This document shows positions 7,147 through 62,658 of a DNA stretch of 64,000 nt, piece by piece. The position numbers and the translations under genes are program-made. The notes below the pieces were generated by a model. It made no database searches and was not told where the DNA came from. It saw nothing but the letters and a program-made list of their open reading frames with translations. Positions within the stretch are counted from its first letter, which is position 1, and every line of letters starts with the position of its first letter. The stretch covers positions 62,626-126,625 of the forward strand of contig NZ_AXAJ01000005.1 in assembly GCF_000472445.1 (NCBI RefSeq), written 5' to 3'. Source of the stretch: Burkholderia sp. WSM2230. GTDB taxonomy: Bacteria > Pseudomonadota > Gammaproteobacteria > Burkholderiales > Burkholderiaceae.

Positions 7147-9618
7147 TTACGGCGCCTCGTCCCCGGCAGCGGCGCACTTCCCGGCTTCGACGTTTTCATC
7201 CAGCGCCATCCGAAAACCCACCACAGCCGGATCTTCCGTCCGCGTAATCGTGAAGCCGCTCGCTTTGGCGAGAGCGATCATGGCGGTGTTTTCGCGCAGC
7301 GCCTCCCCGACGAGCCAGTGCGTGCCGCGCGCCCGCGCATAGCGGATGATGCGATCCGTCAGCAGCCGCCCGAGCCGCCGCCCTTTCTGGTCCGAACGAA
7401 TAGCCACCGCGAATTCCGCCGTTTCGTTGTCCGGATCGGCGACGGCGCGCACCACGCCGAGCGTGCGCGGCACGCCGTCTTCGCTTTGCACGGTCGCGAT
7501 CAGCGCCATTTCGCGGTCATAGTCGATCTGCGTCATGCGCGCGAGCTGCGAGTGATCGAAGCTGCCTACGGCACCGAAAAACCTCAGCCGCAGATCCTCC
7601 GGTGTCATCGCCTCGACGAAATCGTGGTGCGCCGCCTCGTCTTCGGGGCGTATGGGGCGCACGGTTATGCGCAGACCTTGCCAGTCGAGCGTCTCCTCGA
7701 AGCAACGCGGATACGGCACGATTGCGAGCCTGCTGCGCGTCGGCGCGATAGCGAGCGTGGGATCGAGTATCGTCACGTGATCGCGGTACACGCGCAGCGT
7801 AAGCGTCATGCCGACGATCTCGCGCACATCGCAGACAGCCTGCGAGAGCGCCGTCAAAGCGGCCAGCGCCGGCTCCGGCGTGACGAGCCGCGCATACGGC
7901 GAACGCGTGACGATGTCGCGAGCGAGCGTCCGATTGAGCGGCGGCAAACCGTAGATGCGCAGCGGCTCCGCAACGCCATCGGCCGAGGGCGCCGTAAAGC
8001 GGAACACCGGGCCGAAGTTGTCGTCGTCATGCAGCTCGACGGCGATGTCGACCACCGGCTTGCGCAGCGACCCGCTATCGCTTCGCGCGCAATCGCCCGG
8101 TTCGCGCACAGGCTGCCCGGCCGCCGCGTCCGCGCCGGAATGCGGCGCCTCGATCTCGAGCCCGAAGCGCTCCAATACGCCCGCCGCGGCTTGGCCCGTA
8201 AGTTGGCGCTCACCTGCCGCGAGCGCCGCGCGTGCCTGGGTCTGCGCGGCGTCGATCGCGTCAGGCACTTCGGCCGGCAAGCCCTCCGGCGTCTGCATCA
8301 GCAGTTCGCGTCCCATCCGGTAATCGACGAGACGCGCGAACGCGCGGGCGAGCCGCTGCGGCGTCGTGTGAACTGGAATGCCTTGCGCATGCAGTGCGTC
8401 GCGCGTCGCGGCGTCCACGCCGCCAAAGAAACACGCGAGCAGACCGCGATACGCAAACCGCTGATTCGCAATCAGCGCCTGCGCGACCTCGCCGACCGGC
8501 GCGCCGTGCGTCGACGCGTGCACGACGAAAGCCGTGCCGGTGCCGCGATGCCCGGCAAGCAGTTTCAGGGCCGTGCCGAAATGCTCGGGACGCGCGTCGT
8601 CGCCGAGTTGCAGCGGGTTGCCGCCCACCGCATGCGGCAGCGCTTGCCGCAACGCCTGCGATGCTTCCTCCGGCCACGGCGCGAGCGTCTCGCCGGCCGC
8701 GGCGAAGGCGTCGTGCGCGAGGGTGGCGAGGCCGCGGTCGCTCGTGATCAGCGTCGCCGTCGCGCCCGCGGCCACGCGGCCCACGCCGAGCGTTTCGATT
8801 TCATCGAGCAGATCGTCGAGCGCGTCCACGCGCACCATGCCCGCGCGGCGGAAGGCGGCGGTGTAAAGCGCGTCTGCGGGATCGGCGCGGCCCGAGCGCA
8901 GCGCCAGCACCGGTTTGTTGCGCGCCGCCGCACGAGCCGCCGACATGAACTTGCGCGCCGCCCGCACGCTGTCGAGCTCGAGCAGGATCGCGCGCGTGCC
9001 GGGGTCGCTGGCCAGATAGTCGAGCACGTCGCCCGCGTCCACATCGGCCTCGCCGCCTAGTGCCACCGCGTGCGAGAAGCCGAGACCGCGTGCCTGCGCC
9101 CAGCCGAGCACCGCGTTGGTCAGCGCGTTCGACTGCGACACCCACGCGACGCCGCCCGCCTTCACCGTGCACGACGGTGCGCCGAGCTGCGCGCGCAGCG
9201 CCGGCGTGACGACGCCCAGACTGCCGGGCCCGACGATTCGCAATAGATGCGGTCGCGCCGCCGAGAGCGCATGCCGCAACGCTAGCCGGTCGTCGTCCGA
9301 GCGCGCCTCGCCGACGATGATCGCCGCGCGCGTCCCCAAACCTCCGAGCTTGTGAATGATCGAGGGCCAGCTTGCGGGCGGCGTGCAGATCAGTGCGACG
9401 GTGGGCGCTTGCGGCAAATCGCCGGTATCGCCGATCACCGGGCGGCCGCGAAGCGTTTCGTACTTCGGATTGACGGGCCACAGCGGGCCCTCGAAGCCGC
9501 CCTCCAGCAAGCGCGCAAACACCATCGCGCCGGTGCTGCCGGGCCGCTCGGAAGCGCCAATCACGGCGACGGACTTCGGTCGGAACAACGCGTCGAGATT
9601 GCGAACGGTCACAGGCAC
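7147..9618 (-). CDS. Pat-like acyl-CoA synthetase/GNAT acetyltransferase with reduced ATP-grasp region
   Basis: An 823-residue protein in the family of the protein lysine acetyltransferase Pat/YfiQ. The N-terminus is a CoA-binding Rossmann domain (LFRPKSVAVIGASERPGSTG), followed by two succinyl-CoA-ligase-like domains to about residue 470. The C-terminal 170 residues are a GNAT domain with RPIRPEDEAAHHDFVEAM, the acetyl-CoA loop DQKGRRLGRLLTDRII and ENTAMIALAKASGF. Between them the ATP-grasp region is short: its later half is recognisable (NFGPVFRFTA, then PLNRTLARDIV), but the expected early KS-rich nucleotide-binding stretch is replaced by a low-complexity linker. The start is GTG 9618; GTG 9612 fits the GGAG better. 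The likely role is acetylation of metabolic enzymes such as acyl-CoA synthetases. Confidence 0.85.
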   Translation of the reverse strand: MPVTVRNLDALFRPKSVAVIGASERPGSTGAMVFARLLEGGFEGPLWPVNPKYETLRGRPVIGDTGDLPQAPTVALICTPPASWPSIIHKLGGLGTRAAIIVGEARSDDDRLALRHALSAARPHLLRIVGPGSLGVVTPALRAQLGAPSCTVKAGGVAWVSQSNALTNAVLGWAQARGLGFSHAVALGGEADVDAGDVLDYLASDPGTRAILLELDSVRAARKFMSAARAAARNKPVLALRSGRADPADALYTAAFRRAGMVRVDALDDLLDEIETLGVGRVAAGATATLITSDRGLATLAHDAFAAAGETLAPWPEEASQALRQALPHAVGGNPLQLGDDARPEHFGTALKLLAGHRGTGTAFVVHASTHGAPVGEVAQALIANQRFAYRGLLACFFGGVDAATRDALHAQGIPVHTTPQRLARAFARLVDYRMGRELLMQTPEGLPAEVPDAIDAAQTQARAALAAGERQLTGQAAAGVLERFGLEIEAPHSGADAAAGQPVREPGDCARSDSGSLRKPVVDIAVELHDDDNFGPVFRFTAPSADGVAEPLRIYGLPPLNRTLARDIVTRSPYARLVTPEPALAALTALSQAVCDVREIVGMTLTLRVYRDHVTILDPTLAIAPTRSRLAIVPYPRCFEETLDWQGLRITVRPIRPEDEAAHHDFVEAMTPEDLRLRFFGAVGSFDHSQLARMTQIDYDREMALIATVQSEDGVPRTLGVVRAVADPDNETAEFAVAIRSDQKGRRLGRLLTDRIIRYARARGTHWLVGEALRENTAMIALAKASGFTITRTEDPAVVGFRMALDENVEAGKCAAAGDEAP

Positions 9619-17552: not shown

Positions 17553-17573
17553 CAAAGGTGAGCGTTTTCGGGA
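17553..17573 (-). repeat. Dispersed motif copy (CCCGAAAACGCTCACCTTT class)
   Basis: On the minus strand this reads TCCCGAAAACGCTCACCTTT plus a G. It is one of nine clear copies in the window, all intergenic; see the array at 55688-56339. Confidence 0.8.
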
Positions 17574-17897: not shown

Positions 17898-17920
17898 TCG
17901 AAAGGTGAGCGTTTTCGGGA
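17898..17920 (-). repeat. Dispersed motif copy (CCCGAAAACGCTCACCTTT class)
   Basis: The minus strand reads TCCCGAAAACGCTCACCTTT followed by CGA. It has the same orientation as the copy at 17553 and lies 325 bp from it. It is about 100 bp downstream of the H-NS gene stop. Confidence 0.8.
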
Positions 17921-18023: not shown

Positions 18024-18314
18024 CTAGACTTCAATCAGATAACGATCGCGATTCTTGCCGGCGAGCCATGCCGGCGAGCGGCCACGGCCGCTCCACGTCT
18101 GGCCGGTCTTCGGATTGCGATACTTGGCGACCGTGGCGCCTTTGCGCGCCGCCGGGAGAGTTTTCGCAAAGCCCAGTTCCTCGGCAGTCAGATCGTATTC
18201 GGCGATCTTCTGCTTGATGTCGGCAATCGCCTGCGCGATCTCCTTTTCGCGGGCCGCCGCCACCTCCTTGTGAAGCTTTTCCAGCTGAGCGGTCAACTGC
18301 TTGTATGAGGCCAT
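18024..18314 (-). CDS. H-NS histone-like nucleoid-structuring protein
   Basis: A 96-residue H-NS family protein. Residues 1-45 form a charged helical oligomerisation region (LTAQLEKLHKEVAAAREKEI). The C-terminal DNA-binding domain contains KYRNPKTGQTWSGRGRSPAW near residues 64-83, with the conserved T-W-S-G-R-G-R core that inserts into the minor groove. Length and motif match the short Burkholderia/Bordetella type (BpH3/Bv3F-like). GGAG lies eight bases before the ATG. It is monocistronic, with dispersed-motif copies in the region downstream. Such proteins silence AT-rich or foreign DNA; genomes of this group carry many paralogues. Confidence 0.93.
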   Translation of the reverse strand: MASYKQLTAQLEKLHKEVAAAREKEIAQAIADIKQKIAEYDLTAEELGFAKTLPAARKGATVAKYRNPKTGQTWSGRGRSPAWLAGKNRDRYLIEV

Positions 18315-38059: not shown

Positions 38060-38285
38060 GATGATGCATCTCCCCGTTAAAGCGTCGATAAACGAGCCAT
38101 CCTTTCACGTTTGTTATATACCGATCAGGCGTTGCCGTCCATTCGTGATCCGCGCGAGTCGCGCCGGCGCAATCGCCGCCCCAGCCATGCGCGACGGCGA
38201 CACTGCCGGCATTCGCGACATCCGCGACAGCGACATTTGCGACGCTCCCGGAAAAGCTCACCCATTGCGCTCCTGAGCGCGCGCT

Positions 38286-54827: not shown

Positions 54828-54904
54828 AAGTGCCCCCGCCGCTGCGGGCCTGAACCATGCGTGAGAAGATAAAGCCCTGCATCAGCCAACGCTCAAGGAA
54901 TGAC

Positions 54905-55663
54905 ATGACCCCCTCTTCTCCGATTCGCGCCATCGTCACCGGCCATACGCGCGGCCTGGGCGCGGCGCTCGCAGAGCAACTGCTTGCACGCAATGTCGCG
55001 GTGCTTGGTCTGTCGCGCTCGCGCCATGCGTCGCTTAAACAGCGCTTTCCCGCACTGCTCGAAGAAATCCAGCTCGAACTGGCCGAGACGGCGCGCGTTG
55101 CGCAATGGCTGGAAACGGATGCGTTGCACGCATTCGTCAGCGGCGCGCGCACTGTCCTTCTGATCAACAACGCGGGCATGGTGCAGCCGATTGGCCCGAT
55201 CGAAGGGCAAGACGCGACGGCCATTGCGACCGCCGTAAGCCTGAACGTCGCCGCGCCGCTCATGCTCGCAAGCGCGCTCGCCGCAGCGAGCCCGGACGTG
55301 ACTGACCGGCGCGTCATGCATATCTCGAGCGGCGCGGCGCGCAATGCGTACGCTGGCTGGAGCATCTATTGCGCGACCAAGGCCGCGCTGGATCATCATG
55401 CGCGCGCCGTCGCGATGGATGCCACCCGCGCGCTGCGAATTTGCAGCCTCGCGCCCGGTGTGATCGACACGAACATGCAGGCGGAGATTCGCGGCACCGG
55501 CGTCGAGCAATTTCCAATGCGCGAGAAATTCGAAGACCTCAAGCGCAACGGCCAGCTTTCCACGCCTGAGCAATCTGCCGCTCAATTGCTCGACTATGCA
55601 TTCAGCGATGCATTCGGCGAAACGCCGGTGGCCGATATCCGCGAGATCGCGAAGCCGGCGTAA
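54905..55663 (+). CDS. Short-chain dehydrogenase/reductase
   Basis: A 252-residue SDR. The cofactor motif is TGHTRGLGAALAEQL near residue 13, a T-G-x3-G-x-G variant, with the catalytic site later at SSGAARNAYAGWSIYCATKA, giving Ser, Tyr and Lys near residues 140, 156 and 160. The LINNAGMVQPIGPI stretch is normal for the family. The C-terminus (PEQSAAQLLDYAFSDAFGET) resembles the sepiapterin-reductase/YciK-like subgroup. AAGGA precedes the ATG. It follows the GlxA regulator by 77 bp and could be co-transcribed. The region after its stop carries the six-copy motif array. Confidence 0.92.
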   Translation: MTPSSPIRAIVTGHTRGLGAALAEQLLARNVAVLGLSRSRHASLKQRFPALLEEIQLELAETARVAQWLETDALHAFVSGARTVLLINNAGMVQPIGPIEGQDATAIATAVSLNVAAPLMLASALAAASPDVTDRRVMHISSGAARNAYAGWSIYCATKAALDHHARAVAMDATRALRICSLAPGVIDTNMQAEIRGTGVEQFPMREKFEDLKRNGQLSTPEQSAAQLLDYAFSDAFGETPVADIREIAKPA

Positions 55664-55687: not shown

Positions 55688-55710
55688 CTCCCGAAAACTC
55701 TCACCTTTGA
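55688..55710 (+). repeat. Dispersed motif, array copy 1
   Basis: Reads CTCCCGAAAACTCTCACC then TTTGA, the consensus form. It starts 24 bp after the SDR stop. Confidence 0.9.
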
Positions 55711-55852
55711 GTGCACGCGGCGATGATTTGCCTGCTTTTGCAGCGGGCATCCGGCAAATCGCGCTCTGTTTGCAGCGGTTTTGCCGGGGATTTGTCCCCG
55801 GTTCGCCTCATTGCGACGCGGGTGCCCAAGCCTTGGCGCGAGCAACCGGGAC

Positions 55853-55875
55853 CTCCCGAAAATTCTCACCTTCGA
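55853..55875 (+). repeat. Dispersed motif, array copy 2
   Basis: Reads CTCCCGAAAATTCTCACC then TTCGA; two differences from the consensus. 142 bp after copy 1. Confidence 0.88.
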
Positions 55876-55918
55876 GCACGCAGGGATCGGGGTTCGGCGC
55901 AAGCAAGCGGTTTCACAC

Positions 55919-55941
55919 CTCCCGAAAACCCTCACCTTTAC
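55919..55941 (+). repeat. Dispersed motif, array copy 3
   Basis: Reads CTCCCGAAAACCCTCACC then TTTAC. 43 bp after copy 2, the shortest spacer. Confidence 0.88.
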
Positions 55942-56001
55942 CGCCTGCAGACCGGTCGCAAAGCTATGCTGGGCGCGGAGCCGTAGTCGCACAACAGGCG
56001 A

Positions 56002-56024
56002 TTCCCGAAAACTCTCACCTTTGA
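56002..56024 (+). repeat. Dispersed motif, array copy 4
   Basis: Reads TTCCCGAAAACTCTCACC then TTTGA. 60 bp after copy 3. Confidence 0.9.
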
Positions 56025-56171
56025 AAGCGTGCGAATAATCTGCATACCCAGGTAAGCGATTGACGCATCGTCGATGCAAGACGACTGGTGCGCACCCAGC
56101 CTTCCACGTTGATATGAACGGTGAGCCGCACAGCCTGGAGTGGCTCACAGATAGCCACAGCAGCCGGAAGG

Positions 56172-56194
56172 CTCCCGCATTTCCTCACCTTTGA
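56172..56194 (+). repeat. Dispersed motif, array copy 5 (most diverged)
   Basis: Reads CTCCCGCATTTCCTCACC then TTTGA. The middle differs but both ends are kept, which suggests that the CTCCCG and CTCACCTTTGA parts matter most. 147 bp after copy 4. Confidence 0.8.
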
Positions 56195-56316
56195 CGGCGC
56201 ACCACGCGCGACGGCTACCGCATTTACCCCCGCGCCGGGCGGACTTTTAACGGATTTCGCGCATTCCAGCGAAGAGAAACCGGCCAATCCGGCGCTCACA
56301 TCGTCGCACGGAATCG

Positions 56317-56339
56317 CTCCCGAAAACGCTCACCTTTAA
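56317..56339 (+). repeat. Dispersed motif, array copy 6
   Basis: Reads CTCCCGAAAACGCTCACC then TTTAA. It lies 122 bp after copy 5 and 16 bp from the stop codon of the CheY-type gene on the other strand. Confidence 0.88.
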
Positions 56340-62534: not shown

Positions 62535-62635
62535 ATGGGCGGAAAAAGGGAGCGAGGCATCGCGCCGCGCTCCCGGATTGGCTCACCTAAAGCTTCAAAG
62601 TGCGCGGACAGGTACGCATATTCTCACCTCGCCGG

Positions 62636-62658
62636 CTCCCGAAAAGTCTCACCTCAGC
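62636..62658 (+). repeat. Dispersed motif, single copy
   Basis: Reads CTCCCGAAAAGTCTCACC then TCAGC. It lies in the 128-bp convergent gap between the PLD and outer-membrane-factor genes. Partial relatives TTCTCACCTCG (62621) and GGCTCACCTAA (62580) precede it. Confidence 0.85.

Follow-up and report, generated by a model that had tools for sequence, protein, structure and literature searches.

The motif repeated through the 64-kb window (the whole 64,000-nucleotide stretch analysed here) was shown, by sequence comparison, to be the iteron of the secondary chromosome, chromosome 2 (c2). It is a predicted binding site for RepA, the initiator of that chromosome, and we infer that RepA binds it. 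That the copies are c2 iterons and also have some RepA-dependent role in replication control we regard as likely. The motif is known, and the addition made here is the conservation and polarity of its remote sites; a literature search that covered subscription journals and preprints thinly found no description of remote c2 iterons as conserved, polar or confined to one arm.

A search of the window with the 19-mer core CCCGAAAACTCTCACCTTT returned eight matches at ≤3 mismatches, against a mean of 0.01 in shuffled sequence, and none of 100 shuffles reached eight. The matches start at 55690, 55855, 55921, 56004, 56319 and 62638 on the plus strand and at 17554 and 17901 on the minus strand. Together with a variant copy at 56174, they bear out the nine copies reported by a first-pass annotation made from the letters alone; all nine were located, the starts given there being 1–3 bases too low, and two weaker copies, at 38247 and 62572, had been missed. 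We scored the copies with a position matrix trained on origin copies, using a threshold of 4.1 bits (approximately 0.1 false match per 2.6-kb reversed-control region). The nine copies scored 13.5–29.8 bits, and a 4.9-bit match at 7573 was taken as noise. The copies and the genes that adjoin them are as follows.

17554..17572, minus strand: far-pair iteron B, a core match 347 bp from A and ~160 bp before the next same-strand ORF
17901..17919, minus strand: far-pair iteron A, a core match behind the H-NS-like gene
18024..18314, minus strand: H-NS-like gene (Histone_HNS domain), adjoining the far pair
38247..38263, plus strand: weak iteron-like copy (C5:100,872), 19.5 bits, 2 mismatches
54857..55663, plus strand: short-chain dehydrogenase (SDR) gene, adjoining the six-copy array
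55690..55708, plus strand: distal iteron 1, 29.0 bits, 26 bp past the SDR stop codon, with a counterpart behind SDR homologues in several relatives
55855..55873, plus strand: distal iteron 2, 28.1 bits
55921..55939, plus strand: distal iteron 3, 29.8 bits, 66 bp after copy 2 and 83 bp before copy 4
56004..56022, plus strand: distal iteron 4, 29.0 bits
56174..56192, plus strand: distal iteron 5, with a variant middle, sequence CCCGCATTTCCTCACCTTT, 13.5 bits
56319..56337, plus strand: distal iteron 6, 28.6 bits
56356..56727, minus strand: CheY-like response regulator gene, convergent with the SDR gene
62572..62588, plus strand: weak iteron-like copy 66 bp before the 62638 copy, 11.7 bits
62638..62656, plus strand: single distal iteron, 28.9 bits

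The six-copy array lies between the convergent ends of the SDR gene (55663, plus strand) and the CheY-like gene (56356, minus strand), as had been proposed; the far pair, for its part, lies behind the H-NS-like gene (18024–18314, minus strand) and not at convergent ends. The array and the far pair thus fall outside identified genes, and their non-coding setting rests on these neighbours, which is not so for the copies at 62638, 38247 and 62572. Start-to-start distances within the array are unequal (165, 66, 83, 170 and 145 bp), the motif is non-palindromic and folding revealed no common hairpin, in agreement with the earlier view that the array is neither a CRISPR nor a REP/BIME element, both of which we rejected on irregular spacing and the missing common hairpin. 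Copy 5 had been read as a copy that keeps its two ends and has lost its middle, a sign of selection on the ends. Its score is indeed the lowest of the nine, but the identical variant is present in the genome's own origin cluster (C5:172,638), so copy 5 need not be decayed. The variant middle of copy 5 (window 56174) recurs in the origin region (C5:172638; C5:170549), and AATT, TATT and AATC middles are recurrent in many origin regions; from such recurring variants, there may be a second iteron class.

In the published account of B. cenocepacia J2315, the iteron consensus of the chromosome-2 origin is given as ctCCCGAAAAacCTCACCTtt (Du et al. 2016, PMC4948915). The window motif, with its consensus CCCGAAAA..CTCACCT, is likewise a non-palindromic repeat of 19–21 bp, and a cluster of the same repeat lies beside the repA gene of the secondary replicon. 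Since the motif both matches the published consensus and forms a cluster beside repA, its copies are c2 iterons, with the window holding remote members. The densest cluster (C5:172,180-173,494), which is on the minus strand throughout, is directly upstream of repA (C5:173,598-174,980, plus strand), and its sequence, its setting and the published consensus show that it is the origin's own control region. The 460-residue product of repA carries Rep3_N and Rep3_C domains (Rep_3 family), and its best PDB sequence match, to the Pi initiator 2nra, is weak (E 0.006). ParB, ParA and a KfrA-like protein are encoded around repA, so that the likeness to the B. cenocepacia c2 iterons, as far as these are described in that paper, extends from the consensus to the setting beside repA and parAB on a secondary chromosome. 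The minimum of the cumulative GC skew of C5, at 160,575, is ~13 kb from the origin cluster. Measured along this single contig, the six-copy array is ~54 kb from the chromosome-2 origin, and the strong window copies are ~49–93 kb from repA.

Within the genome, the motif is nearly confined to this replicon. Contig C5 holds 16 of the 17 matches to the 19-mer at ≤3 mismatches, the seventeenth being a 3-mismatch match on C2, and the reversed control gave 0; counts in the genome are far above chance. The 17-mer CCCGAAAANNCTCACCT matched C5 12, 20, 24 and 39 times at ≤0, 1, 2 and 3 mismatches, respectively, versus 0, 0, 3 and 11 for the reversed control, and at ≤1 mismatch all 20 own-genome copies of this 17-base core are on C5, itself 5.7% of the assembly. 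The first-pass annotation had treated the repeat as uncharacterised, and had set membership of a known repeat family and chance-level counts against its own reading. The former turned out to apply in part, as the consensus was already published as the B. cenocepacia c2 iteron and the main cluster lies beside repA, outside the window; the latter did not apply. The suggestion that the copies could bind a protein is plausible.

The other suggestion, that the array encodes a repeated small RNA or another transcribed element, fared poorly. The copies are direct repeats in intergenic DNA, and copy 6 with its flank folds more stably than most shuffles (z -2.0). However, the sequence equals that of the origin iterons, and the other five of the six stretches folded showed no clear gain in stability over shuffles (z -0.85 to 1.41). 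There was no Rfam match at the gathering score and no promoter-like site at 55.6-56.4 kb, where two terminator-like sites were found versus 1.2 expected. We therefore consider a transcribed element extremely improbable. The same holds for centromere-like (parS) sites bound by the ParB of the secondary chromosome, for which the scatter of copies near the origin and the adjacent parAB genes could be cited. The parS sites reported for Burkholderiales secondary replicons are 16-bp palindromes, mostly perfect, with a central CG (PMC5450999), whereas the window motif lacks palindromic symmetry and agrees with the RepA iteron consensus; we rejected this candidate with near certainty.

The motif and RepA also occur together across the family. 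A genome collection held 221 loci with a RepA relative, and the best 80 were kept, from Paraburkholderia, Caballeronia, Trinickia and records labelled Burkholderia. Among these best 80 of 221, 79 have at least one copy ≤3 kb upstream of repA (one locus spans only 1.7 kb); the median is 13 copies at ≤2 mismatches, and 999 of 1,010 copies are on the strand opposite repA. Across 249 family genomes, a close RepA (E <= 1e-100) was accompanied by the exact motif in 108 of 110 cases; of the 139 genomes without one, 6 have the motif, four of them as a single copy. All 58 genomes of the window's genus (own included) have both the motif (≤1 mismatch) and a Rep_3 protein. The same arrangement is found on the Mycetohabitans rhizoxinica B49 megaplasmid, where 13 copies (≤2 mismatches) precede an annotated replication initiation gene. 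Blastn against a plasmid collection gave weak matches only, pointing to replicon ends in Mycetohabitans and Caballeronia. One locus counts against the reading that we favour. The second RepA copy of P. phenoliruptrix LMG 22037 (locus L096), ~91% identical to that of the window genome, has no copy at ≤2 mismatches in the 3 kb upstream and one 3-mismatch match in the whole locus; this may reflect a second replicon or an effect of the assembly.

Copies in the origin arrays are often spaced 22, 44, 67, 88 or 112 bp apart, values close to multiples of 22 bp that suggest a helical register; spacings of 58, 62, 97 and 100 bp are also frequent. Weak copies lie between strong ones in C5:172180-173494 and in 79 origin regions. 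Perfect cores made up 305 of 712 copies at ≤1 mismatch at the origin, 39 of 72 at mid-distance (20 chosen loci) and 24 of 26 in the far pair (13 loci chosen for holding the pair).

We then compared the placement of remote copies in 19 genomes, namely the window's own, P. xenovorans LB400 and 17 relatives with ≤5 contigs (all such among 57 sampled). The origin clusters (0–2.5 kb) of these genomes hold 168 copies. With the origin cluster excluded, 164 copies within 100 kb were on the iteron side of repA versus 5 on the repA side, an excess seen in 19/19 genomes, and 139 of the 164 are inverse to the origin cluster, so that most near copies read towards the origin; as the genomes share ancestry, these counts describe a pattern and not independent events. 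The remaining 25 of 164 break the orientation rule, and G020 is another exception, with the far pair in inverse orientation. By distance from repA, iteron-side copies occurred at 2.5–4 kb in 11, at 10–14 kb in 15, at 20–56 kb in 13 and at 50–190 kb in 14 of 18 genomes. A further 47 copies lie elsewhere on the same contigs in the 19 genomes. The 17 relatives together hold 370 copies at ≤1 mismatch, of which 27 are on contigs other than that of repA; the reversed control gave 9 in these genomes.

The remote sites are kept in relatives rather than placed at random, most clearly at the far pair. We searched the genus (58 genomes) with the H-NS-like protein and read the 700 bp behind the 30 best matches, from 30 genomes including the window's own. 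Of these 30 best-match loci, 26 carry one or more copies in the orientation of the gene and 25 carry two; the remaining four loci (G024, G010, G009 and G011) had no copy behind the gene. The pair shares its strand with the H-NS-like gene in all 25 two-copy loci. Neutral relics, that is, functionless copies dispersed when the origin region was duplicated or rearranged long ago, would be in keeping with copy numbers that differ among species and with orthologous places that lack copies. They would not be expected to hold their spacing, which is 346–364 bp in 23 of the 25 two-copy loci (327 and 74 bp in the other two), nor to stand out from their surroundings as the pair does: across 14 pair-holding loci (own plus 13 relatives), the two iterons account for every non-coding run of ≥8 columns that is conserved in 90% of rows. 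We consider neutral relics very unlikely. In an alignment of 23 of the 30 loci, pairwise identity was 96.6% in iteron columns, a figure inflated by construction since the loci were selected for two perfect cores, 51.6% in other intergenic columns and 83.7% in the gene end, with 82.9% in the best other 18-column stretch. The case for conservation is carried by the count of 26 of 30 and by the diverged flanks, and this comparative evidence strongly supports maintenance of the far pair by selection. Insertion-sequence ends are argued against on position, since the copies keep orthologous places across species.

The six-copy array is conserved in part. We compared 20 remote loci, chosen for holding copies, with the window's genes. 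Among 11 loci with an SDR homologue (10 of the 20 plus L134), six have a copy ≤60 bp from the SDR end. LB400 likewise has such a copy near the homologue's end, and its array is flanked by orthologues of both the SDR and the CheY-like gene; G011 and G051 have one too, at a great distance from the origin. The 66/83-bp module formed by copies 2–4 recurs as 65/83 in G014, G022, G036, G050, LB400 and G288-G290 and as 65/81 in G030, and was not seen in the other fully listed genomes, which were compared by eye. The other array copies have been gained and lost between loci, so that copy number and positions turn over.

In G011 and G051, the SDR-linked copies are 740–786 kb from the origin. Their position behind the SDR homologue ruled out that the pair ~750 kb from the origin in these genomes is a separate element, and such a placement fits poorly with an early-duplicated titration site. 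Copies that stay with the same genes when the genes move may instead serve the adjoining genes, regulating or insulating them in a RepA-dependent way, with no part in replication control. The invariable strand of the far pair relative to the H-NS-like gene and the nearness of its copy B to the next ORF point the same way, as does a conserved intergenic copy far from the origin. This copy came from an examination of 18 chosen far or off-contig copies and three others, out of a larger set. It lies upstream of a hydrolase-like ORF at six homologous loci (L173, L175 and L214-L217, in G022, G036, G290, G288, G289 and G050), at 0.82–0.87 of the way to the replicon's opposite point in the three genomes where this is computable, and is out of keeping with a role near the origin; conservation extends in part to its flanks. 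In the same examination, three recurrent groups (11 loci) fell inside open frames of >400 codons and look like coding coincidences. Among the copies examined, which take in some of the 27 off-contig ones, we found no conserved non-coding copy that would make a crtS-like chromosome-1 site with this motif's sequence. A purely local role is at odds with the six-copy array, which is placed between two convergent gene ends and turns over in number and position, and with the crowding of copies on one origin side, which is unexpected of gene regulators. We therefore rate a local role as unlikely, though less so than neutral relics.

Returning to replication control, we lean slightly towards the view that the remote copies lower initiation at the chromosome-2 origin. 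Remote iterons on one arm would bind RepA in the cell and, being duplicated soon after initiation, would lower free RepA by titration; alternatively, they would pair with the origin cluster (handcuffing). Either event would delay the next round of initiation. With their good consensus match, and a closeness to the origin that gives early duplication, the remote copies would be expected to soak up RepA or to handcuff. Plasmids offer a model, P1 incA being a control locus of extra iterons; plasmid control iterons adjoin the origin, whereas the window's copies are tens of kilobases away. The likeness to such loci, F incC among them, would be that extra iterons restrain a Rep initiator by both titration and pairing. 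In E. coli, datA and DARS follow a similar proposed logic, in which initiator-binding sites outside the origin tune initiation, although by the accounts available to us those sites act on DnaA, unlike the plasmid-type RepA considered here.

The closest parallel is V. cholerae chrII. There, RctB is reported to bind remote sites that lie ~40 kb from the origin within a 74-kb span, and these sites lower the copy number of an origin plasmid (PMC3937223). As in that system, the window holds motifs for an initiator dedicated to one chromosome, placed tens of kilobases from the origin of the replicon that carries them. As that paper describes them, the V. cholerae sites differ in being 12-mers with GATC and 39-mers served by another initiator, whereas the present case is built from sequence, and in that the copies here are polar and nearly all on one side. 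The V. cholerae strain without the strongest remote chrII site was reported to have no growth phenotype (PMC3937223), which by analogy would count against the titration reading. Du et al. mention further copies through the B. cenocepacia genome, along with a second cluster of c2 iterons at 140 kb from the origin (S1 Table legend, PMC4948915); the remote copies get this one legend clause, and the rep-par section of that paper passes over the remote cluster. The conservation across genera, the one-sidedness, the orientation and the attachment to particular genes described here go beyond that section and legend. How second chromosomes derived from plasmids are held to one round of copying per cell cycle is understood in depth chiefly for Vibrio, to judge from the literature consulted. 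Conserved, polar remote initiator sites in a second large group would point to a comparable solution built on a different initiator. The motif also marks the c2 replicon in draft assemblies.

A further idea, which we advance tentatively and think more doubtful than negative control itself, is that the remote copies act as RepA stations strung along one arm, conserved and oriented opposite to the origin cluster, and that the series senses the progress of replication. Passage of the fork would double the capacity for RepA binding stepwise, the origin would be closed by titration or by pairing in loops, and initiation on chromosome 2 would be tied to fork progress on one side only. The published account of B. 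cenocepacia notes a slight left-right asymmetry of c2 replication (PMC4948915), to which a one-armed series might be related.

Several placements merit separate mention. A remote group at C5:162689-162883 (L028) is ~11 kb from repA, and orthologues of the same gene adjoin copies in G001, G020, G041 and G043. In G024, contig C1 (6,677,280 bases of a 6.7-Mb genome) holds the c2 repA and iterons at 781 kb and dnaA at 4,336,798. With c2 repA and dnaA on one contig, this appears to be a fused chromosome and chromid, and it keeps 14 remote copies on the iteron side; a chromosome-chromid fusion has been published for Cupriavidus necator (PMC8729776). In four genomes of the sister genus g12 (G275, G237, G088 and G126; L135-L138), a remote cluster is ~145–160 kb away on the repA side. 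These clusters resemble the 140-kb cluster of B. cenocepacia and lie among homologues of genes near the window's far pair.
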